64,000 nt of DNA. Source: a virus. The stretch covers positions 1 to 64,000 of IMG/VR virus record IMGVR_UViG_3300024259_000016; one strand, 5' to 3'. Shown piece by piece: positions 6,619 to 33,705 of this stretch. A program made the position numbers and the translations under genes. The notes under the pieces were generated by a model. The model was not told the origin of the DNA, made no database searches, and worked only from the letters and a program-made list of their open reading frames with translations. Positions within the stretch are counted from its first letter, which is position 1; every line of letters begins with the position of its first letter.

Positions 6619-9600
6619 TTATTCATCAAAGGTTACATTTCGGAGAAAACGCCAAAATGGACTGTCCGGATCAAGGTAACCCGGCTTGGTTCTGGTAACG
6701 AACAGGCGGTCCTGGGCGCGGGTGACTGAGACATATAGGAGCCGGGTCTCTTCCTGAGACAGTTCGGGGTCCATCTTGGACTTGGCGCCGGGGAACCTGC
6801 CGTGCACCACATCAGCCAGGATGACGTTCCGGGCCTCCTTGCCTTTGAAGCCGTGGATGGTGCTCAGGGTGAGCACGTCCCCCTGCGACGGCCCTGCCTG
6901 GCCCTGGGCCTGCCTGTGCATCTCATGCATGCGCCGCAGCAGGTCAACCTGAGCCAGCAGCTCCCCTACGGTGTCGAATTCGGAGGCAAATTCCATGAGC
7001 TCTTCGAGCACAATGAACGCCCCCTCGGAGCCCTCGGCCTTGGTCAGCCCGAACTTCTCGGCTAGGTACTCCACGTAGCCGATCTCATCGATGACGAACT
7101 TCATCATCTCGGCGGGCCCGCGGCCCTCCCGGCCCATGATCCTCAGCCTGATGATCAGCTCCTTCAAGCTCCTGAGAGCCAGCCTCTGTGGCTTGATGAG
7201 CCTGGCCTTGTCTAGGATCTTGTCGATGAGGTCTGTCTCCTCAGAGCCCTCTGCCGCTGCGTACTGGGGCCTGCCTACGAACCTCTTGGGGACGTTCATG
7301 ACAGCCCGCAGGGCGGTCCCGTCAACATCCAGGCCGGCGCCCACCCGCAAGTAGTTGAGCAGGTCCCGGGCCTCACGCCCATCCAGGATGAAGCCCCCGC
7401 ACAGCTTGATGTACGGCACCTCGTTCTTGGTACACCAGATGGAGATCCAGTGCAGTACGGCCGCGGTCCTGGCCAGCACCGTGGTCTCCCCCAAGCCCAG
7501 CTCCTGAGCCTTATCCACGATCCATTTGACCTCGTCCATCCGGCTCTCGAAGGTCTTGAACTCAATGGGCTCACCACCCTCTGCCCGCCGCGGCCGAATC
7601 TGACCTGCCAGGTGCCAGGGCCTACCCTTCACAACAGCCGAGCCCAGGGTGCAGATCTTGTCGGTGGACCGGTAGTTGTTCGGGAGCTTGAACAGCTTGG
7701 CCTTGTCCCTGTCGATGAACTGCAGGATAACCCCAGGTTCCGCAGTGCGCCAGGAATACACACTGTTGTGGACAGCGATACCGTTGGCGAAGTAGTTGGT
7801 CGTTCCATCGATATCCAGGTCCCTCAATTCGAGAGGTTCTTCCGATCGGTAACCTGTCTTGGCTACAACCTCGTCGGGTGCTCCGTCGTCCCCCCAGATC
7901 CAGGTACCTGGAACGAGATTGGCCAGTGGCATAGCTGTCATTTTCTCCCCGCAGGGTCCTTTGGCACTGCTCAAGCTGACCCTAAGGACGGCACGAATTT
8001 TAGTTGCACCAGCAACTATGTCCCCAATCTGCTCGGCAGCAGCATGTGCTTCCGCACCGGATGGGTATCTCCGACGAATCCTGGCTGTCCCGCGACGTCC
8101 GTCTCGGACAGAGATACCTGTACAGGCTGTTATCGCCTCACGAATCTTTTGGGGCGCCAGTTCCTGTGATTCGCAGGTCAGCTCAGCCGGCCGATTGTTT
8201 TTAACACCCAATGTCAATGTAATAATGATGCGCTTACCGACCTGACTTTGGGGTAAGTACGTGGGCCAGGCAAAGAGCATATGAAACAACTTGAGGATCT
8301 TTGGCCCCCCCTTGCATCCGAATTCCTTGAATATGGCTGCAGCTCCGGCTTCCGACAGGCGTAGCTTCCGACCCACTGTCTTGAACGGGAGTGTAGGGAC
8401 CTTGTAGCGTAAAGACAGCTGCAGCTCTTGCAGAGCAGCATCAGCTGCCGTCTCATGACAATCGAGCAGCCACAGGGCATCAGCTCCTTCGTGCAATGCC
8501 CGAACGGATACAGAGTGACGGGCTGCGTTTTTTGCACCTTGGGTAAGTCCTATCCGAAACCCCATGTCTTTGCGCCACATGAGGTAGGTGTAGAAGCGGA
8601 CATTGGAGTGGGGCATGCAGGCAAAGACCAGGTGGTCGGAAGAGCCCTCTAGAATTCTCCCAGATGCTGTCTTGATCTTCGTTATCTCGGTCTTGTCTGT
8701 CGCTCCGGCATGTTGGACTGTTCTAAACACCTGTTTGCCACCCTGGCATGAACCGACAGAGTCCCCGGCTTCGATATCCCGGAGTAGCACCCTGCCCCGG
8801 GTTTTTGTCTGAATCATTGTCGTGTGGGGGTTCAGGCACTGGCTCAAGTCTCCGGCCAGCATCAAGTTCTGATCCCGGTCGGACCCACCCACCGTCGGGT
8901 AGATTCGGCTGGGCAGCCCCGCGGCCAGGCGCATCAGATCATGCTGGATGCCACTGCAGTCCTGAGCCTCATCCACGATGACCACGGACCACTGGGACCT
9001 CCACCAGGCCAGCAGGTCAGGACTCCCGATGAGCAGGTGCCAGACGAAGGACTGCACATCGTCGTAGCTGTACTTGGCCATGTCCCAGCGCAGCGCCTCG
9101 ATCTCCTGATACATGGTCAAGGCCTGCTGAGAATCGATGGGCATCTTGTCGGCCAACCACGACTCAGCTATCCGCCGTACCAGCTCCCGGCCGTTGTCAT
9201 TCAGACCAAACCAGTCCTTACGCCAGGGGACAGGCCCTGTGTTCTTGCACCGAGACATGAAGGTGGACAGCACCTCGTGGTCTACGATCATCTCAGGGAT
9301 CACCTTCATCTTCTTGAGACGGTCGACCTGGGCACGCTGGGCGGCCGGCAAAGCACCGTCCTCGTCGTGCGACATGGCATCGAAGAGCCAGGGCGCCATC
9401 TTCGGCCCCCTGTCGTAGCAAAGCCCGTGGATGGTTCTGACCTCACATCCCTCGATACCCATCCCCGAGAGCCGCTCGATCATCTCCCCACAGGCTGCCC
9501 GGGTGAATGTGACCAGCAGTATCCGCCACGAATCCACCCCGGCCTCGACCAGGTCCCTCACCCGCTCCAGCAGGCACCGAGTTTTGCCACTGTTATGGAC

Positions 9601-10500
9601 CAGGAACCCGGAGGCTTCGAAGTTATGATGTGGCCCCTTCATCTTGATGTCGTATGTACGCTGCGGCCCAGCCGGGGAGACCGACTTAACGATTCCGACC
9701 CGGGTATATTTGATGCCAAAGTTTTCATCTTTGCCATGAAGTCTGGCATGGGCCTTTTTCGACAGCAGCTGTAGATTCTCAGGGACATCATTGAGGGAGT
9801 CCTCATCCTTATGGTGGACCTCCAACTTAGGGTCCAGATAAGAGAAGATGGAGGGCAAGTCTCCCCGAGTTTTCAAGATTGCAACATAGTCGGAATAAGG
9901 AATCCCATTGATGGAGGCTTCCAGGACCAAACGAGCCCGCGGCACTTCCCAGTATCTGTACTTCTCCTCACGAATACGGAGGGTCCCGGCGGGATGATGG
10001 ACATGGAGGGTAACAACCCGACGTTTAGCATATCGGGTTCTCCCTTCCCCCTTCTTAGGGAGCATATTCCCGAGGAGAAGGACCTCATCGCCGGCGGACA
10101 GTTGCCCGGCCGGCTTTCCATCAATAAGGTCCGAAGGAGTCAGGAAGGGATGGTCCCGGGTACATGTTAATTCCAGGCCGCATCGGGTCGTAACGATGAG
10201 ACAGTCCTGAACTCCGGAATCCACGATGGCCTCGATCTCGCGGTAGGCCACAACCCCCCCAGGCTCAATCGACTTGATCCTAGATGTCATGGACAGGTCC
10301 CGACCTATCGACCTCCTGCACGGGAGACCATTGAATTTCCGGTAGGCCTCCTCGATTGTGTAGGGCCGAGATCCGGGTCGTTGTCCCCTGCTAATACCCA
10401 CGATAGCGTCGGCTGCGAGGCAACCTGGGTTGCCGGCCACCACCGAGGGGCCCAGGCGATGCACCGCTACTTGCTGCTGATCTTCATCCAGATTAATCAT
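6619..10500 (-). CDS. UvrD/PcrA-type superfamily 1 helicase with two inteins
   Basis: 1293 aa precursor; removal of two inteins (residues 27-303 and 555-912) leaves a 658-aa helicase. Extein motifs: I VVAGNPG/SGKT, Ia TFTRAACGEM, II VVIVDEAQD, III LAGDLSQ/SVYSWRTAEP, IV LPNNYRSTDKI, V LSTIHGFKGKEARNV, VI RLLYVSVTRAQDRL. These are the UvrD/Rep 3'-5' helicase signatures. Both inteins begin with Cys, end His-Asn and are followed by Ser, and they interrupt catalytic motifs I and III, so an unspliced protein should be inactive. Start ATG 10500 has AAAAGGA upstream and a dyad at 10516-10536. The C-terminus is ...NVTFDE. Confidence 0.92.
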   Translation of the reverse strand: MINLDEDQQQVAVHRLGPSVVAGNPGCLAADAIVGISRGQRPGSRPYTIEEAYRKFNGLPCRRSIGRDLSMTSRIKSIEPGGVVAYREIEAIVDSGVQDCLIVTTRCGLELTCTRDHPFLTPSDLIDGKPAGQLSAGDEVLLLGNMLPKKGEGRTRYAKRRVVTLHVHHPAGTLRIREEKYRYWEVPRARLVLEASINGIPYSDYVAILKTRGDLPSIFSYLDPKLEVHHKDEDSLNDVPENLQLLSKKAHARLHGKDENFGIKYTRVGIVKSVSPAGPQRTYDIKMKGPHHNFEASGFLVHNSGKTRCLLERVRDLVEAGVDSWRILLVTFTRAACGEMIERLSGMGIEGCEVRTIHGLCYDRGPKMAPWLFDAMSHDEDGALPAAQRAQVDRLKKMKVIPEMIVDHEVLSTFMSRCKNTGPVPWRKDWFGLNDNGRELVRRIAESWLADKMPIDSQQALTMYQEIEALRWDMAKYSYDDVQSFVWHLLIGSPDLLAWWRSQWSVVIVDEAQDCSGIQHDLMRLAAGLPSRIYPTVGGSDRDQNLMLAGDLSQCLNPHTTMIQTKTRGRVLLRDIEAGDSVGSCQGGKQVFRTVQHAGATDKTEITKIKTASGRILEGSSDHLVFACMPHSNVRFYTYLMWRKDMGFRIGLTQGAKNAARHSVSVRALHEGADALWLLDCHETAADAALQELQLSLRYKVPTLPFKTVGRKLRLSEAGAAAIFKEFGCKGGPKILKLFHMLFAWPTYLPQSQVGKRIIITLTLGVKNNRPAELTCESQELAPQKIREAITACTGISVRDGRRGTARIRRRYPSGAEAHAAAEQIGDIVAGATKIRAVLRVSLSSAKGPCGEKMTAMPLANLVPGTWIWGDDGAPDEVVAKTGYRSEEPLELRDLDIDGTTNYFANGIAVHNSVYSWRTAEPGVILQFIDRDKAKLFKLPNNYRSTDKICTLGSAVVKGRPWHLAGQIRPRRAEGGEPIEFKTFESRMDEVKWIVDKAQELGLGETTVLARTAAVLHWISIWCTKNEVPYIKLCGGFILDGREARDLLNYLRVGAGLDVDGTALRAVMNVPKRFVGRPQYAAAEGSEETDLIDKILDKARLIKPQRLALRSLKELIIRLRIMGREGRGPAEMMKFVIDEIGYVEYLAEKFGLTKAEGSEGAFIVLEELMEFASEFDTVGELLAQVDLLRRMHEMHRQAQGQAGPSQGDVLTLSTIHGFKGKEARNVILADVVHGRFPGAKSKMDPELSQEETRLLYVSVTRAQDRLFVTRTKPGYLDPDSPFWRFLRNVTFDE
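7765..8838 (-). other. Intein 2 in motif III (GDLSQ/S) of the UvrD-type helicase
   Basis: 358 aa (precursor residues 555-912). Splice signatures: N-terminal CLNPHTTMIQTKT with IEAGD, block B-like GSSDHLVFAC, C-terminal block TTNYFANGIAVHN then Ser+1. The central ~200 aa carry a segment with YKVPTLPFK and helical stretches; no HNH motif and no clean LAGLIDADG pair is visible. The insert may be a degenerate or unrecognised endonuclease. Confidence 0.9.
9592..10422 (-). other. Intein 1 in Walker A (GNPG/SGKT) with HNH endonuclease
   Basis: 277 aa (precursor residues 27-303). Block A begins CLAADAIVGI, block B is CTRDHPFL, C-terminal blocks are RTYDIKMKGPHHNFEASGFLVHN (split here: RTYDIKMKGPHHNF then EASGFLVHN) followed by Ser+1. 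An HNH-type nuclease motif LEVHHKDEDSLNDVPENLQ lies at precursor residues ~226-244, so this is a potentially active homing intein placed in the P-loop. Confidence 0.93.
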
Positions 10501-14395: not shown

Positions 14396-15298
14396 TCACA
14401 ACCAGAGCCACATACCAAGAAGCGTCAGCCCCGCCCCAACGGCAACCCCGAACAATACTCCCCAGACGGGACCAGGCACCCAGCTCTCCTGTATAGGTTC
14501 TCTCGGCGCCACCTTCTCGACGGTATCAGCGAGGCTCAATCCCCCTCCCTGAATTCCCTTATGCAGCTCTCTCTTGAAGTCCTCCACCATGGGGCCAATG
14601 ATCCTTTTCACTTGTTCTCTTTGTTCAGGACTCGGTGGGAGTATCACCAGCTGGGTGTTATCAGGTGGGGGGATAACTCCCTTCCCCCCTTCGTAGCCTG
14701 CAGCAGCCAAAGCATCCAACTGCCTCTGCCTGTGCGGCCCATCCCCCACGAAGATACGGAAGTCAGGCCCTCCACCGATGCGGCTTCCCCTGCCCCCGGC
14801 CTGGATTACAGTATCTGGCGCCCCCACCCCAGGATCCAGGGCCACCCACTGAACGTTCGGGATGTCAATCCCTGTCCCCCACACTCGAGTCGCTACGGCT
14901 ACCCAGGCATCCCCGTCATCCAGACGCTGCCGCATCCCCTCTCGCAGCACCTTGCTCTTGACCCGGGCATCACTCACTTCGATGACCCGGTCCCCCCGGA
15001 ACCCCTCGATCCCGAGCAGCCCCAACCGTATCTTCAGCCACTGGGCTATCAGGTCCCCTGTCGGCAGGTCCCCCACCAACACCAAACCTGGCCAGCTCCC
15101 CTCGCTCAAAGCCACCAGCACATCCTTCAGGATGCCCTCCCAGGCGACATCCAGCCGGCCCTGCTCCCCCCACAGGCTCGACCCACTCGCCCCCTTCTCA
15201 CCACCGGGCTCAATCCCACCGTCGTGCCAGTTAACAACAGCTCCACCACCCGCCAGCTGGATCTCCCTGTCCCGGGGGTTACCTTTGCACGGACCCAT
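14396..15298 (-). CDS. Superfamily 2 helicase, C-terminal half (split gene) with membrane tail
   Basis: 300 aa. Helicase C-terminal lobe: GLVLVGDLPTGDLIAQWL (motif IV region), VAVATRVWGTGIDIPNV (motif V, ~133-149), VIQAGGRGSRIGGGPDF (motif VI, ~164-180). It lacks the N-terminal lobe, which is encoded by 15784-17838; the two would have to associate after translation. Oddity: residues ~278-300 form a hydrophobic segment (VWGVLFGVAVGAGLTLLGMW) that would be a C-terminal membrane anchor, unusual for a helicase. AGGAAAG lies upstream of ATG 15298. Confidence 0.8.
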   Translation of the reverse strand: MGPCKGNPRDREIQLAGGGAVVNWHDGGIEPGGEKGASGSSLWGEQGRLDVAWEGILKDVLVALSEGSWPGLVLVGDLPTGDLIAQWLKIRLGLLGIEGFRGDRVIEVSDARVKSKVLREGMRQRLDDGDAWVAVATRVWGTGIDIPNVQWVALDPGVGAPDTVIQAGGRGSRIGGGPDFRIFVGDGPHRQRQLDALAAAGYEGGKGVIPPPDNTQLVILPPSPEQREQVKRIIGPMVEDFKRELHKGIQGGGLSLADTVEKVAPREPIQESWVPGPVWGVLFGVAVGAGLTLLGMWLWL

Positions 15299-15529
15299 CA
15301 GATTCCCAGCTTTCCTGTAATGTAACCTTCTCCCAACAATATCGTCACCTTACACGCCATCTTATACTCCCTTGCCCGAAAATCCCCAAATATAACAGCT
15401 ATCCGATATCATTGTGGAAAACCTGTGGACAAAGGTTACATTTACAGAAACCCACGTCACACCTTATGCGCATGTGCGCGATCCCCGGGACTACTACCTG
15501 CGGTAGCAGCCCCAGTAGTAGTACCAGTA
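15299..15529. other. Intergenic segment inside the split helicase: repeats, DnaA-like boxes, hairpins
   Basis: Holds no gene. Seen: TTTTCCACA on the minus strand (15413-15421, fits the DnaA-box consensus) next to TTGTCCACA (15424-15432, one mismatch); the 35-bp repeat at 15419-15453; a shorter AATGTAACCTT copy at 15321-15331; an A/T-rich stretch around 15385-15415; and overlapping hairpins at 15490-15534. May act as promoter/leader for the C-terminal half, as a terminator of the upstream genes, or as an origin-like site. Confidence 0.5.
15419..15453. repeat. 35-bp repeat, inverted copy of 6505-6539
   Basis: Exact reverse-complement match to 6505-6539. Both contain AAGGTTACATT (this orientation), which also appears at 6629-6639 and, reversed, at 15321-15331. 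Confidence 0.8.
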
Positions 15530-15534
15530 CTACT
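15490..15534 (-). terminator. Overlapping hairpins downstream of the 85-aa gene
   Basis: ACTACTAC (15490-15497) can pair with GTAGTAGT (15515-15522); alternatively AGTAGTA (15514-15520) pairs with TACTACT (15528-15534). The two structures are mutually exclusive. No clear U-run follows, so terminator function is tentative. Confidence 0.3.
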
Positions 15535-15787
15535 CATCGGAGGAATCCTCTTTGCGCTCAGCCGGGACCCAGAGGTGGAATGTCATGTAGCTCGGGAGGC
15601 ATCCTCCATTACTGATGGCCCTGGCTGCCTTTTCGATAGGTGTTGTGTCTTTGTCGGACGGGGACTGGCGGAGCAACACAGTGGCTTTTCCTTCCTCGCT
15701 CAGCCCCAGTCGGTCTTCAACAAAGGTCTGCTCAAGCAGGTTCTCGCACTCCAAGCACAGGCCATCTTCATCAAAGGTAACTTTCAT
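15530..15787 (-). CDS. Hypothetical acidic protein between helicase halves
   Basis: 85 aa, start overlaps the N-terminal helicase stop (ATGA). Begins MKVTFDEDGLCLECENLLEQ with a CxxC, acidic C-terminus. No family recognised. It lies at the point where the helicase gene is divided, so it may belong to the insertion that split it. Confidence 0.55.
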   Translation of the reverse strand: MKVTFDEDGLCLECENLLEQTFVEDRLGLSEEGKATVLLRQSPSDKDTTPIEKAARAISNGGCLPSYMTFHLWVPAERKEDSSDE

Positions 15788-17838
15788 GTCCTCACAACCT
15801 CCCCGCGGGCTAGGTACCCACCCCGCTCCAAGTCAGCAATCTCGGCCACCCGTACAATAGGCCCCAGCGCGCACAGCATCAGGCAGTTCCGACCGTCTTG
15901 TCTCCCATCAGGAGTAGCTGTCAGGCCAATACGGCAGCGGGCCCTGAGGCGCCCCAGGACGGGCAAACGTGTATTACTCATGGCTGCATGGCAGTTATGG
16001 ACTACAAATCCGTTAGCGGTGTAGGTGTGCAGCCCCTCAACCTCGAGATTGTAGACAAGACCGTCTGGGCACACCCTCTCGTATTCTTCAAAACTTCCTT
16101 GTTGGAAAACCTGAATACGATCCACCCGAGTCCAGCGAGGAACTTGTCTTTCTTCCGGTCCTGACCTCGCCTCTCTGAACTGTTGTGACTCTGGCCGTCT
16201 ACCTCGATGGCTACCATCAGATCCGGTTGGGCAATGTCGATCTTGTAATGGGTGGGATATCCCCTGGATTTCGGGCCCACCCCTTCTGGAAGGCCTAGTC
16301 TCGTCGGGACAATGTGCTCCATTCCCCAACCGAGTAAACCTGCCAGCATTCGTTGGGGGACTGTAGGTTCTCGTCCGTTGCCCCCCCTCTCGACCCCTTC
16401 CGGCCAGCCCCTCTCCCTCACCTTGGCGGTCACCAGGGCGCGAACCTTGGGATCCTTCATCGGGTTGTTCTTCCGCATTCGCTCGGATGACTTCTTTGAC
16501 CACTCCTCGCGATGCTCCTCCCGGGTTCTGGCCCACACCTTCACTCGGTATTCCTTGACACATTGAACCGAGCAGTAACCCCCCTTTCCTCGGGAAAGTT
16601 GGTAGAGGGCAGACGGGCCCCGACTCCCCTGACAGATAATCCCCTTCCCGCAGTTTATGCAGTTCGTCTTGACTCTCTTCCTTCGTTCTTCCCTCCTCGT
16701 CAATTTGCATGTTTGGCAGAACAGGGATGCTCCGTTGTGATGTCTTTTCTTCCCTGTCTCCTGTCCGCATCTGTCGCAGGTGCCGTCTATCGATCTCTTC
16801 TGATGACCTTTTACTGTTTGATTCTCCATGCTTTCTGTACCCCTCTGGTTTGTGGTAGGGTACAGTGTATAGCACTCTGTCGTTGCGAGCAATCGTCTTG
16901 GCTGGTATCCAGCCTCGTTGGGTGAAAACGGGGTGTTCCTCGGTGCAGATGAATGAACCATCCTGCGTGGTAATCTGGATCAGAGATGATGGGGCTTTTC
17001 TCACGAAAGTTCCTGTGACGGTCCTCCTCTCAAGATTCCCAGATGTCTCATTGTAGGCACTGACTTGGTCCCCGATCTCAATGTCCTCAATGGGCTTTCC
17101 GTCAACCAAGGTCCCTGCTGGGAAGCACTCATCAATCACAACGCCGTCCAGGGCCCCCACAGCCTCCCCAGCAGTCCCTACGGACATGCACTGAGGCACC
17201 CCCTGCCCAACATCCCCACCAACCACATCCCTCATCTCAGGGATCACCCTGTCAAACACCTTCTGGGTCTGCCGAGCCAGCTCCTGGTTCACCACCAGGT
17301 ACCCGACCTTCTCTAGTCCAAGCAGCTCCTGCATGCACATAAGCAGCCCCGCGGCCATCACAGTTTTGCCACTGCCGGTCGCAGCTTGGATCACACACCT
17401 CCCCCACGGTGCACACAACCCCTCCACGATCCCCTCAGCTTGGTAATCACGCAGCGGCATCAGCAGCCCTTCATCCCGCAACGTCAGGACAGCTGACTCA
17501 ATCCGCAGCTGAATCAGCTCGGGCAACCAGGGATTAACAACAGCCCCCCCAACACCCCGGAGCCGGAGCAGCATAGGCTCAGTCTCATGCACTATATGCA
17601 GCCAGCTCATCATGCCCACGGGTACCTGCCCACTCGACAGAGAGCCCGCCCTCAGCACCTCAAGGGCCCCCTGGACTTCCATAACCAATTCTTCAGTACT
17701 GACGCGCCCATCCCGCATCTCCCGGGACCGATACCCCAAGGTCGTTCGCTCGTAGGCCGCCAACATGCTGACGAGGTTTGCCCTCCTACATCCCCCATGC
17801 CCCCAGGTATCCCCCATCCCGTCGACCAGAACGATCAT
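15784..17838 (-). CDS. Superfamily 2 helicase, N-terminal half, with intein in the DECH box
   Basis: 684 aa precursor; the spliced product would be 306 aa. LRDYQAEGI (~129-137), Walker A AATGSGKT (~152-159), LVVNQELARQT (motif Ia), VVIDE (Walker B, ends residue 237) / intein 238-615 / CHAAM, then IGLTATPDGRQDG (motif III). It ends after one RecA lobe (GPIVRVAEIADLERGGYLARGEVVRT), the point where XPB/SSL2-like helicases continue into the C-terminal lobe. That lobe is encoded separately at 14396-15298. The N-terminal ~120 aa are an unassigned helical domain. Confidence 0.85.
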   Translation of the reverse strand: MIVLVDGMGDTWGHGGCRRANLVSMLAAYERTTLGYRSREMRDGRVSTEELVMEVQGALEVLRAGSLSSGQVPVGMMSWLHIVHETEPMLLRLRGVGGAVVNPWLPELIQLRIESAVLTLRDEGLLMPLRDYQAEGIVEGLCAPWGRCVIQAATGSGKTVMAAGLLMCMQELLGLEKVGYLVVNQELARQTQKVFDRVIPEMRDVVGGDVGQGVPQCMSVGTAGEAVGALDGVVIDECFPAGTLVDGKPIEDIEIGDQVSAYNETSGNLERRTVTGTFVRKAPSSLIQITTQDGSFICTEEHPVFTQRGWIPAKTIARNDRVLYTVPYHKPEGYRKHGESNSKRSSEEIDRRHLRQMRTGDREEKTSQRSIPVLPNMQIDEEGRTKEESQDELHKLREGDYLSGESGPVCPLPTFPRKGGLLLGSMCQGIPSEGVGQNPGGASRGVVKEVIRANAEEQPDEGSQGSRPGDRQGEGEGLAGRGREGGQRTRTYSPPTNAGRFTRLGNGAHCPDETRPSRRGGPEIQGISHPLQDRHCPTGSDGSHRGRRPESQQFREARSGPEERQVPRWTRVDRIQVFQQGSFEEYERVCPDGLVYNLEVEGLHTYTANGFVVHNCHAAMSNTRLPVLGRLRARCRIGLTATPDGRQDGRNCLMLCALGPIVRVAEIADLERGGYLARGEVVRT
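15994..17127 (-). other. Intein 3 (DE/CHAA site) containing an out-of-frame endonuclease gene
   Basis: 378 aa. N-terminal splicing half (~100 aa): CFPAGTLVDGKPIEDIEIGD (block A), CTEEHPVF (block B). C-terminal splicing half (~50 aa): block F-like DGLVYNLEVEGLHTYTANG and terminal VVHN before Cys+1. The ~230 residues between, in this frame, are low-complexity with no domain, because that DNA encodes a homing endonuclease in another frame. The frame nevertheless stays free of stops, which splicing requires. Confidence 0.93.
16002..16829 (-). CDS. Vsr-like (EDxHD-type) homing endonuclease nested out of frame in intein 3
   Basis: 275 aa from ATG 16829 (AGAGGGG ~10 nt upstream). Order: zinc finger 1 (Cys18, 21, 38, 41), zinc finger 2 (Cys57, 60, 86, 90), a NUMOD3-like segment SERMRKNNPMKDPKVRAL (~115-132), then a Vsr/DUF559-type nuclease core: YKIDIAQPD (Asp198), AIEVDGQSH (Glu209, Asp211, His215), Asp/Lys-rich helix, LGWIVFRFSN (~234-243). 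This matches freestanding Vsr-fold homing endonucleases. The frame is shifted by one relative to the host intein, and the C-terminal ~46 codons overlap the intein C-terminal splicing blocks. It presumably cuts intein-less helicase alleles to mobilise the intein. Confidence 0.88.
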   Translation of the reverse strand: MENQTVKGHQKRSIDGTCDRCGQETGKKRHHNGASLFCQTCKLTRREERRKRVKTNCINCGKGIICQGSRGPSALYQLSRGKGGYCSVQCVKEYRVKVWARTREEHREEWSKKSSERMRKNNPMKDPKVRALVTAKVRERGWPEGVERGGNGREPTVPQRMLAGLLGWGMEHIVPTRLGLPEGVGPKSRGYPTHYKIDIAQPDLMVAIEVDGQSHNSSERRGQDRKKDKFLAGLGWIVFRFSNKEVLKNTRGCAQTVLSTISRLRGCTPTPLTDL

Positions 17839-25959: not shown

Positions 25960-26278
25960 CCTGGTTCTCTCTTTCCAGGAGTCTCAGACCTGCAGCTGTA
26001 GGCCTAAACAGGCGGCCATCTGGAGTGCCACGTTCCAGATTCCCTGCAGCTTCGGCGGCCATTGCCTCCTCAAAGAGCCATGCAGCATCACAGATGATTC
26101 CTCTCAGGCAGTGACGCACAATGCCCGAGTAGTCTCGATCCCTCTTTCGGGGGTGGTCGAAACAGATGTAAGAACCGTTGGCACGTTGGCGCATGTAACC
26201 TTGAATAGCCTCGTTGTGATACCTCTCCCCACAGATATCACAATCTTCGCGGCGACTGTTGCTATCGTCGAGGTCCAT
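25952..26278 (-). CDS. Hypothetical zinc-binding protein
   Basis: 108 aa. CDICGERYHNE and YICFDHPRKR supply a plausible Cys/His zinc site in the first half; a helical C-terminal half follows. Start overlaps the upstream stop (TAATG). Confidence 0.6.
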   Translation of the reverse strand: MDLDDSNSRREDCDICGERYHNEAIQGYMRQRANGSYICFDHPRKRDRDYSGIVRHCLRGIICDAAWLFEEAMAAEAAGNLERGTPDGRLFRPTAAGLRLLERENQDG

Positions 26279-26976
26279 TATTTGCTACCGTCGTCCGTGG
26301 CCACCCTCCAGGTCTTGAAGCCGGCCTTAACCATCCGGCGGGCAAGTTCATCCCCACCAGCACCACGCCCGATCAGGTCGACGAACTGCTTCGGGCTGAC
26401 CGTCAGGATGGTCGAAGGCGCTTCGGCCTCTCGGCCAGCGATGACCTGGATGTCAGGCCGATCAGCATCCAGCCCCACCTCGTAGGTGTCCTCATCCAGG
26501 AAGTGCTTCTGGAACCAGTCGGCCAGGTCGCCGTTCAACACCACCTTCTTCGGCTCGGCAGGACTCCCCTTGCCCTTGACTGCATTGAACAAAAAGCCCT
26601 TGTGCTCTTCGGAGTCGGACACCTGAGCCAGCAGCTTCTCATCCTTGATGGCCTTGAAGTTCCCCTCAGCCGAGTGCGCCGGCACAGTCACCGTCACCGC
26701 CCGCAACACACCCGTCTCGGCCACCCCGCCGAGCAACTTGATCTTGCTCGACTTGAACCCCAAGAAGTCGGCCAGCGTGAGATCCTTGAAGGCCCCCTGA
26801 CGAACCCCGTCGAGCACCTTCCACACCCGCTCCTGCACCTGCTCCAGCTTCACCCCCTCCACCATCTGGGCCTCAGCCACTTCCCCCTCAGCCTCGATGA
26901 GGTCGTCCACCGCTGCGGCCACATCCCCATCCTTAATTGAGAGAAGTTGTTTACGCCGATCGATTAAATGCTCCAT
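26278..26976 (-). CDS. Conserved-looking hypothetical protein with its own strong ribosome site
   Basis: 232 aa from ATG 26976, preceded by AGGAGGAGG. N-terminal helical region (LIDRRKQLLSIKDGDVAAAVDDLIEAEGEVAEAQ), then two mixed alpha/beta modules. The same frame is open upstream into an HNH nuclease, so the protein can also be made as a fusion. The strong internal ribosome site argues that this was an independent operon gene before the HNH gene arrived. Confidence 0.65.
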   Translation of the reverse strand: MEHLIDRRKQLLSIKDGDVAAAVDDLIEAEGEVAEAQMVEGVKLEQVQERVWKVLDGVRQGAFKDLTLADFLGFKSSKIKLLGGVAETGVLRAVTVTVPAHSAEGNFKAIKDEKLLAQVSDSEEHKGFLFNAVKGKGSPAEPKKVVLNGDLADWFQKHFLDEDTYEVGLDADRPDIQVIAGREAEAPSTILTVSPKQFVDLIGRGAGGDELARRMVKAGFKTWRVATDDGSK

Positions 26977-27852
26977 TTTTATTCCTCCTCCTTTTGCAGT
27001 TGTTTGCCAGTCTGGCCAGAAAACCTGACCGTTCCGATTAGGATAAGCTCTCCGTTCTGGACCTCCGTTGAGGAGGAGATCTTCCTGATGAGTTTTTCCA
27101 TGTATGAAGTTCTCAAGAGTAGGCCTCTTCAGTCCGTGCTTCTCGCACATCTCCTGTTTGTAATCGGAAAACACCCACCAGTCTCTTCTCGGGACACTGG
27201 GGCCAAGAAGCCCTCTCTCTTGGATAGGAGCACAGCCCGCCCGGATCTCTCTGACAACACCCAAAGGTATGCCTGATTTTCTTCCCCCCCTCCCATCCTC
27301 CGCCATTTGCTTCGAGTTCGCCTGGTAGGTCCCTAAATAAAGATGGCTGGGTCGACAACACTTTCTGTTGTTGCATAAGTGACATACAAGGAATTTTGGT
27401 CTGACTGGTCCATAAGAAAGAACCCAGACCATTCGGGATGCAGCAGTGGCTAGACTCTGAGATTTTCCAGCTTGGCTCCCGGGATAACGGACACCTACTG
27501 TAAAGCTCCCATACCCTTGCCTCTGGATAAGACTTCCCGTCCATTCCCAGCAAGAGGTGTCTATCCGTTCTGAGTGGGGCTCTCGCTCCGTACATGATAC
27601 TCGACTCCAGAGGCGGTTCTCTAGCCGGTATGGGAAGAGGAGATGTTCACGAAGATTGGCTACCCCCTCTTCCGATTCCAGTACGGACTGCCGCACTTGG
27701 CGCATCGTACGGGTGTCTCCGGTTTCCGTGGGAACCATGAGTGGCCGCACCGCTCGCATGTGCATGAGGGCAGTACGATCTGCTCGCCTGGCTTCGGATT
27801 CTGATGGGATGACTTTTTGGACTTGTCCGCTTTCATCTTTGATTTTCTCCAT
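26278..27852 (-). CDS. HNH endonuclease reading in frame into the downstream gene
   Basis: 524 codons; residues 1-292 are the nuclease, the rest is the 26278-26976 protein. Nuclease core: CWEWTGSLIQRQGYGSF, then SRMVWVLSYG, VCHLCNNRKCCRPSHLYLGT (His-Asn-His type, HNH_3-like with Cys pairs), then NSKQMAEDGR. N-terminal ~75 aa (VLESEEGVANLREHLLFPYRLENRLW) are shared with the paralogue at 28609. No stop separates nuclease and host gene. The putative promoter has -35 TTGACA at 27884-27889. Likely a freestanding homing nuclease that inserted into the operon. Confidence 0.75.
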   Translation of the reverse strand: MEKIKDESGQVQKVIPSESEARRADRTALMHMRAVRPLMVPTETGDTRTMRQVRQSVLESEEGVANLREHLLFPYRLENRLWSRVSCTEREPHSERIDTSCWEWTGSLIQRQGYGSFTVGVRYPGSQAGKSQSLATAASRMVWVLSYGPVRPKFLVCHLCNNRKCCRPSHLYLGTYQANSKQMAEDGRGGRKSGIPLGVVREIRAGCAPIQERGLLGPSVPRRDWWVFSDYKQEMCEKHGLKRPTLENFIHGKTHQEDLLLNGGPERRAYPNRNGQVFWPDWQTTAKGGGIKMEHLIDRRKQLLSIKDGDVAAAVDDLIEAEGEVAEAQMVEGVKLEQVQERVWKVLDGVRQGAFKDLTLADFLGFKSSKIKLLGGVAETGVLRAVTVTVPAHSAEGNFKAIKDEKLLAQVSDSEEHKGFLFNAVKGKGSPAEPKKVVLNGDLADWFQKHFLDEDTYEVGLDADRPDIQVIAGREAEAPSTILTVSPKQFVDLIGRGAGGDELARRMVKAGFKTWRVATDDGSK

Positions 27853-32132: not shown

Positions 32133-33705
32133 TCAACAACCCCAATAGTCCCTCACTTGCTCATGAAGATCATACAGGGCGATGTTGAAAACATTGGGGC
32201 TCCAAAGTCCTGCCAGTCCAGCCTTCAGGTTATCCCCAAAGAACCTCCCGAAGATCCCCTCGAGTTTTCTCAAGGACGCCCAGTCAGTTTCCCCGAACGA
32301 GCGGTCCCGGAACAACCCCCCCACAGATTTATATATCGAGGACCAAGAGTCCTCGAGCATCCTACAGAACATCCCTACCTGGCTGTCCCTCCAAGCATAA
32401 GATGGCTCGAGATACTCTTTCCCTCCAGGGAAAGCAAGGCGCCCCTCCCTCGACAACCGATCACACAGCTTGGTCCCCGGGAACACACGCAGGTGCATGT
32501 CGGGATGCCGGAACACCTGTTGCAATGCCATCATTCTCCCCCAGGAAGCCCAGCGACTCCTCGAGCTCCTCCCACGTGGTGTCAGGACCAAACAAGATCC
32601 GACCGAGGTTCACCCGTATCCCTGCCCTACGCAGCCCGAGCACAGCAGTTCTCACATCCCTGGACTTCACTCCCTTCCCCAAGTACCCAAGCATCCGATC
32701 CGACCCACTCTCGGCCCCGAGGAACACGGTCTTCATCCCTGACCTATTCAGTTGCTTCAACAGGTCCATGTCCAGTTGCCCACCCCAGTTCAGGGAGTCG
32801 GCCCGAAGCTCCACCTTGTACTCGATATCCAACTCACGTTCCAGGATCTCGTGGGCAATCTCAGTGGCATGGTCCCATCCATCCATCCCCTTTGGCAGGA
32901 ACAGGTCATCATTGAAGTAGAACCGACGGATCCCCCTCTGCTTAACCATCACTTCGATCTCATCGACGACATCCCCAGCATCCCGACCAATCCAAGAAGG
33001 CTGTCCACAAAGCTTGCGGACGGCCGGCGTGGTGCAGAAGCTGCAGTTGTGGGGGCACCCGCGGCTCGCCAGGATCCGGGCACACTGTTGTCCATCACCC
33101 ATCTCATCGAGCACAGCTCGGTCAGGCTGCAGCCCTTTCCATACCTCCGAGTCACTCACCTTCTCAGTAGCCGGGCCTGTAAAAATGGGGGCAGGACATC
33201 CGGCCCGAGGTCGGAAACCGATACCCATGACACCAGTCATATAGGTTGTTGGGGGCTCCCCCAGTCTATTAGCCAGACAGACGGCAGAGGCAACCTCGGG
33301 GGCAGTCAGTTCCCCGTCCCCCAGTACAACCACATCACAGGCTGTTGTCTCCCAGTCCTCGAGGATCGCACGGGCGCACAGACTAGCATGGTGTCCGCCC
33401 CAACAAACCACAGGGGACTCGAGCCTCCACATAGCCCGGACATCCCGGCTGACCCGACTTACCACCTCCGCATTCGAACAGTCCACCGTGAACCCAACCA
33501 TACCAGCCATAGGAATCCGGGACAGAGTTGTCACTACTTTGGCGACACCACCCATCACCCCGCTATCCAGGATCCTCACCTCATGCCCACACCCCCGCAA
33601 AGAGGCAGACACATAGGCCAGGCCCAGGTGTTCGTCGGCATGAACCCGTTGTCTAACCAGGTCGCCCCCAGCCTCGGTCAGTAATCTCACCAGATAGATC
33701 AACAT
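32133..33705 (-). CDS. B12-binding-type radical SAM protein, frameshifted
   Basis: Two frames: 32461-33705 (414 aa) and its continuation at 32133-~32540. N-terminal cobalamin-binding-like Rossmann domain (VVCWGGHHASL; VVVLGDGE), then the radical SAM motif CPHNCSFC (217-224) and a TIM-barrel half (FYFNDDLFLPKG; ELRADSLNWGG; TVFLGAESGSDRMLGYLGKG; VNLGRILFGPDTTWEELEES). The expected end (HLRVFPGTKLCDRLSREGRL) is in the +1 frame; removing one base from the CCCCC run at 32538-32542 rejoins them to ~520 aa, a normal family length. Such enzymes methylate or rearrange unactivated carbons. Confidence 0.8.

Follow-up and report, generated by a model that had tools for sequence, protein, structure and literature searches.

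The window analysed here, 64,000 nt in length, comprises positions 1 to 64,000 of IMGVR_UViG_3300024259_000016, a 114-kb IMG/VR virus record, and contains a helicase ORF that is interrupted by an intein within which a second gene overlaps in another frame (Table 1). The ORF runs from the start of a ResIII-type SF2 helicase to the sequence VVIDE, continues through the intein, and resumes with CHAAMSNT and helicase motif III. A sequence-only reading of the stretch had correctly described two overlapping frames offset by one base, together with their extents, and gave no strand; both lie on the minus strand, and stops are abundant on the plus strand over the same interval. The helicase is encoded in two ORFs, the intein-bearing piece stopping past motif III and the remainder lying downstream (14396-15787, minus strand). 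An 85-aa ORF without assigned function is located between the two pieces, and the Helicase_C ORF has a hydrophobic tail. Due to this division into two ORFs, the function of the host gene in the window is not assured.

Table 1 Features of the intein-bearing helicase locus (window coordinates)
Feature	Position	Strand	Basis
SF2 (ResIII-type) helicase N-terminal ORF, intein-interrupted, 684 aa	15784..17838	-	ORF; Pfam ResIII E=2.3e-9, Intein_splicing E=6.2e-9, PT-HINT E=1.1e-9
Intein, 378 aa, in the Walker B/DEAH box, DE^C...HN^CHAAM	15994..17127	-	Sequence boundaries; D-E, C1, H-N and C+1 conserved in at least 90% of 56 relatives
N-terminal splicing half (Hint blocks A/B)	16864..17127	-	AlphaFold pLDDT ~97; matches solved inteins
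Read-through filler in the intein frame, DNA shared with the nuclease	16141..16863	-	pLDDT ~45, almost without secondary structure; stop-free against expectation
C-terminal splicing half (blocks F/G), overlapping the nuclease C-terminus	15994..16140	-	pLDDT ~96; slow at all codon positions family-wide
Likely internal ribosome-binding site (GAGGGG) and nuclease ATG	16827..16845	-	Sequence; weak at this locus alone (top 9% of positions)
Nested predicted homing endonuclease, 275 aa, +1 frame; zinc knuckles and EDxHD/DUF559	16002..16829	-	Pfam DUF559 E=6e-11; AlphaFold pLDDT 88; best PDB match I-Bth0305I, 3r3p
Predicted nuclease catalytic stretch E209-x-D211-G212-xx-H215...D224	16157..16207	-	D211, G212, H215 and D224 invariant, E209 in at least 90%, among 58 relatives
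C-extein of the intein-bearing ORF, CHAAMSNT... to helicase motif III (LTATP)	15784..15993	-	Sequence; alignment of relatives
Second helicase piece (Helicase_C), separate downstream ORF	14396..15298	-	Pfam Helicase_C E=3.6e-6; tblastn with the extein of L018

Elsewhere in the window, a UvrD-type helicase ORF (6619-10500, minus strand) carries two more inteins, which are conventional and serve for contrast: one in Walker A (GNPG^C...HN^SGKT) with an in-frame HNH_3 domain, the other at the site DLSQ^C...HN^S. A 524-aa ORF (26278-27852, minus strand) with HNH_3 and zf-His_Me_endon matches is perhaps a homing endonuclease or the host of one, and a B12-binding radical SAM protein is encoded at 32461-33705 (minus strand) of this phage contig.

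The intein begins with the residues CFPAGTLVDG and ends with HTYTANGFVVHN, followed by C, and the hallmarks of the class are present, namely the nucleophile C1, the block B TxxH motif, the C-terminal HN and a cysteine at +1. Across the family alignment (A7 numbering) C3, T64, H67, N380 and C381 are invariant and H379 is nearly so. Pfam analysis of the 684-aa frame placed Intein_splicing at residues 249-615, together with PT-HINT. AlphaFold, run on alignments made without three phage-collection rows, predicted the first 90 residues of the intein frame (pLDDT ~97) and the last 50 (~96) with high confidence, with the middle ~240 residues disordered (pLDDT ~45-55), and Foldseek matched the ordered part to solved inteins at E ~1e-5, including gp41-1 and the Ssp DnaB mini-intein. 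The two halves are part of one continuous ORF in the window; separate ORFs for the two halves, as in a split intein, were found only in L127 (see below).

The nested frame is contained entirely in the intein, shifted by one base, and is open from an ATG at 16961 (319 aa). The likely nuclease ATG at 16829 follows the end of the N-block (near 16864) by ~35 nt, in agreement with the suggestion that the nuclease begins where the N-terminal splicing half ends, and the final ~140 nt of the nuclease are shared with the intein C-block (about 16140-15994), also as had been proposed. Pfam matches to the nested frame were DUF559 and REase_MTES_1575, with DUF559 matched in all nine nuclease family members tested. 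AlphaFold, again run without those three rows, predicted a nuclease domain together with zinc knuckles and an extended helical region, at a mean pLDDT of 88, and the top Foldseek match was I-Bth0305I (3r3p; probability 1.00, TM 0.66 on the target, E 0.037). By sequence, I-Bth0305I was not reached with a profile built from nine nucleases, and was reached only marginally (E=0.5) with one built from 58. On the basis of the predicted fold and the conserved E, D, H and D residues, the nested protein qualifies as an EDxHD, or Vsr-like, homing endonuclease; the original Vsr-like assignment is thus supported by fold and is refined to EDxHD/DUF559 with zinc-knuckle modules at the N-terminus.

In order to establish how widespread the arrangement is, the nuclease was used as a query against viral contigs, prokaryotic genomes and annotated phages, and locus classes were assigned from the positions of the intein N-block, the C-block and the nuclease. 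At 123 loci both splicing halves share a single ORF and the nuclease has the offset seen in the window; one of these loci is an identical copy of the window locus on a second metagenome contig (L002); the search for the same arrangement that had been called for thus returned 122 further loci. The nested loci reduce to 89 distinct loci at 85% identity. A nuclease in frame, or at any other offset, was seen at none of the 123. Inteins recovered via the N-block alone comprised 75 nested inteins, five mini-inteins, and no in-frame or split forms. Cultured phages with the nested element include Vibrio CP-T1, Corynebacterium phi673 and Pseudomonas MR14, and cultured bacteria include Ktedonobacter racemifer, Azospirillum canadense and Longilinea arvoryzae. 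In the GenBank records inspected, one gene is annotated (helicase, P-loop NTPase, coil-containing or hypothetical) and the nuclease is unannotated in all; phi673, the only actinobacterial phage matched, is annotated as a plain helicase. The insertion site is nearly always D-E^C of Walker B, in ResIII-type helicases, some SNF2-like ones and two DnaX-type clamp loader genes (L110:3388-5346 and L119:3136-5214). The neighbours of the L110 gene are RecA-like, delta and delta' genes, resembling a large phage replication module. The nested arrangement, which the sequence-only reading had rightly recognised and had taken to be an unusual one, is therefore not a one-off confined to a single genome; it is an established mobile-element lifestyle.

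Several states of the insertion site were recovered. An empty site is present in Vibrio phage VchM-138 (L173:2501-4423), which reads DEAHH where CP-T1 (L172:1501-4482) reads DE^CHH with flanks that are ~95% identical, so that the occupied allele differs by an Ala-to-Cys change that supplies the splicing nucleophile. A search for an intein-free relative of the window's own helicase found none. At five loci the same site holds a mini-intein that lacks the nuclease; the four that were read out are 131-151 residues long. In L127:3196-5487, from a Lacinutrix MAG, the ORF of the N-half ends just past the N-block, the C-half ORF lies in the same frame, and many stops lie between them; the middle of the intein frame has decayed and the nuclease is intact, which corresponds to a fractured-gene form. 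In L097:3977-6042, from a Spirochaetaceae MAG, a free-standing nuclease of the family lies just upstream of an uninterrupted ResIII helicase (DESHH). The nuclease tree places L097 and L127 among the nested members; its outgroup is not monophyletic and its rooting is weak, and it does not settle whether change ran from nested to split or from split to nested. Observations that had been named in advance as counter-evidence were scarce: no degraded nuclease frame was present among the 122 loci, the intein frame was interrupted only in L127, where the intein is split, and no fusion with both in one frame was found.

Selection on the two frames was compared across the family. When nuclease codons were reshuffled synonymously, 7.8 intein-frame stops per locus were expected and none was observed at 122 loci, a zero that is partly a matter of definition as loci were classed by an unbroken ORF, although L127, which has both halves, was the only locus dropped in this way. 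For the window's sequence, represented by the identical L002, 7.6 stops were expected and none was observed. The third frame contained 10.9 stops against 10.3 expected. Together with the disordered middle predicted by AlphaFold, these values bear out the idea that the intein frame is a low-information read-through kept open for splicing. The comparison of substitutions in both frames, also proposed at the outset, showed that changes in the middle region concentrate at nuclease codon position 3 (1171, 1014 and 2608 at positions 1, 2 and 3), and identity between relatives is higher in the nuclease than in the intein frame (e.g. 90% vs 64%). Rates at host codon positions 1, 2 and 3 were.38,.32 and.56 in the 5' extein,.23,.16 and.42 in the N-block,.38,.17 and.15 in the middle,.15,.10 and.14 in the C-overlap, and.13,.10 and.64 past the nuclease stop. 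The fastest position thus switches at the element boundaries from host position 3, in the exteins and N-block, to host position 1, equivalent to nuclease position 3, in the middle; the C-overlap is slow at all three positions, and host position 3 is again the fastest beyond the nuclease stop. These switches indicate that selection acts on the nuclease in the middle, on the intein at the ends, and on both in the overlap, selection on the window's copy being read from the family because its only close relative is identical.

The genetic code offers an explanation for the fixed offset. At the present offset a host-frame stop requires a T at nuclease codon position 3 followed by AA, AG or GA. No amino acid is encoded by a T-ending codon without a C-ending synonym, so that a suitable choice of codons keeps any protein free of host-frame stops. 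At the other offset, TGA is unavoidable wherever Met precedes a codon that begins with A; an RMK motif is commonly conserved in the nuclease family. Stop-free writability may therefore account for the fixed offset, which common descent would also explain.

The start of the nuclease was examined across the family. Of 88 loci, 68 have an ATG no more than 10 codons upstream of the first CxxC, compared with 31% of control windows (p=1e-18), and anti-SD pairing upstream of the position-fixed ATG is shifted towards stronger values (p=8e-6). When SD strength was instead taken as the best among all candidate starts, no convincing signal emerged (median P 0.40). The conserved DEVL(Y) codons of several Vibrio phages, GAT/GAC GAG GTT TTA TAT, supply both the GAGG and the ATG. 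Programmed +1 ribosomal frameshifting, by which the nuclease would be made as a fusion to the N-extein and the N-half of the intein, would fit the offset, as the nested frame is the +1 frame and a +1 shift would join the two, and 13 of the 88 loci have no obvious start near the first zinc knuckle. However, the distance from the opening of the nuclease frame to the first CxxC is 12 codons or less in 28 of the 88, so that a shift would have little space, and the enrichment of both the ATG and SD strength also argues against it, making frameshifting unlikely. Internal initiation is preferred as the probable source of the nuclease.

Other explanations for the nested frame carry far less weight. 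An ordinary large intein, its endonuclease in frame, would show a one-base offset if sequencing or assembly had introduced an indel; two indels would be needed for the C-half to stay in frame, and such an error was rejected as extremely improbable due to the identical copy on a second contig, the same layout in the cultured phage and bacterial genomes listed above, and the codon-position signal, which changes frame at the internal boundaries of the element. The nested frame could alternatively be the dying relic of an out-of-frame nuclease gene, given that the mini-inteins at the same site show that nuclease loss happens and that the window copy is without an informative close relative. This was also rejected, as very unlikely, because the nuclease frame is stop-free with invariant catalytic residues, is under purifying selection family-wide, and encodes in the window itself a protein with a confidently predicted fold. 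Removal at the RNA level, with a self-splicing intron bearing an intronic endonuclease gene and an incidentally open helicase frame, has in its favour that group I introns are known to encode EDxHD enzymes (PMC3943268), but an Rfam search of the window gave no match and no intron was found, full Hint halves with an invariant C1, Asn and C+1 lie at the exact boundaries, and the intein frame is open against expectation in 122 loci. There is hardly any likelihood left for this explanation, and it was likewise rejected.

The best reading, to which a probability of about 0.88 was assigned, is a mini-intein overprinted by a homing endonuclease gene that is translated from an internal start. Direct support comes from the anatomy of the locus, its conservation, the direction of selection, the empty, mini and split states of the site, and the predicted folds. 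The helicase frame would encode a cis-splicing mini-intein whose Hint halves are joined by a disordered linker of ~240 residues, and the +1 frame of the linker, extending into the C-half, would encode an EDxHD homing endonuclease as a translation product of its own. Ribosomes initiating at the helicase start codon would make a precursor from which the intein is spliced out to restore the helicase, and those initiating at the internal ATG just past the N-half would make the nuclease. The nuclease would cleave copies of the gene that have no intein, and repair of the break would then insert the entire element. Selection on the linker would act mainly to keep it stop-free, which at this offset would come without cost.

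Known elements resemble this arrangement in part. Canonical large inteins, with an in-frame LAGLIDADG or HNH domain, also place Hint halves around a homing endonuclease and occupy the same niche; their endonuclease stays joined to the splicing domain, whereas in the window and all 122 loci it is offset by one base, as a separate overlapping gene. Fractured genes, in many cases helicases, have an EDxHD/Vsr-like endonuclease gene placed between two intein halves. L127 resembles these, whereas the window and the 122 loci differ in having a continuous ORF that is potentially cis-splicing, with the nuclease overlapping out of frame. Fractured genes with split inteins were reportedly described by Dassa and colleagues in 2009, a study cited in PMC3229294. 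ShiLan-type insertions in phage methylases carry an out-of-frame HNH endonuclease (Arsenault et al. 2025, PMC11855218), and share with the window an endonuclease gene in another frame of an insertion that leaves the host frame open, as well as a homing-like distribution. They differ in that no splicing domains were found in them, so that they are thought to be retained in the protein, in the use of HNH rather than EDxHD, and in an endonuclease described in the third frame rather than at offset one; the window insertion has a splicing domain. I-Bth0305I, the best fold match of the nested nuclease, is an EDxHD homing endonuclease encoded in a group I intron (PDB 3r3p; PMC3943268), unlike the window gene, and its sequence similarity is marginal. 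No description of a continuous intein with an overprinted endonuclease was found in the papers searched, although a 2025 preprint on non-canonical actinobacteriophage inteins, cited by PMC11855218 for overlapping frames in actinobacteriophages, may overlap with the present finding (Gosselin, Arsenault and Gogarten 2025, bioRxiv 2025.01.02.630785).

The nested loci probably represent a widespread, unannotated class in which a mini-intein carries an overprinted homing endonuclease gene at the one offset that permits any nuclease to be written stop-free, and which links mini-inteins in evolution with free-standing nucleases and with the fractured-gene, split-intein form. An intein and a homing endonuclease would here be joined through shared DNA rather than a shared polypeptide, in a natural, long same-strand overlap with one frame under protein-level selection and the other selected mainly for openness. 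As L127 has the same layout following decay of the linker frame, the origin of split inteins and of fractured genes becomes testable. Natural tolerance of linkers of ~240 residues within Hint domains may also be useful to protein engineers.
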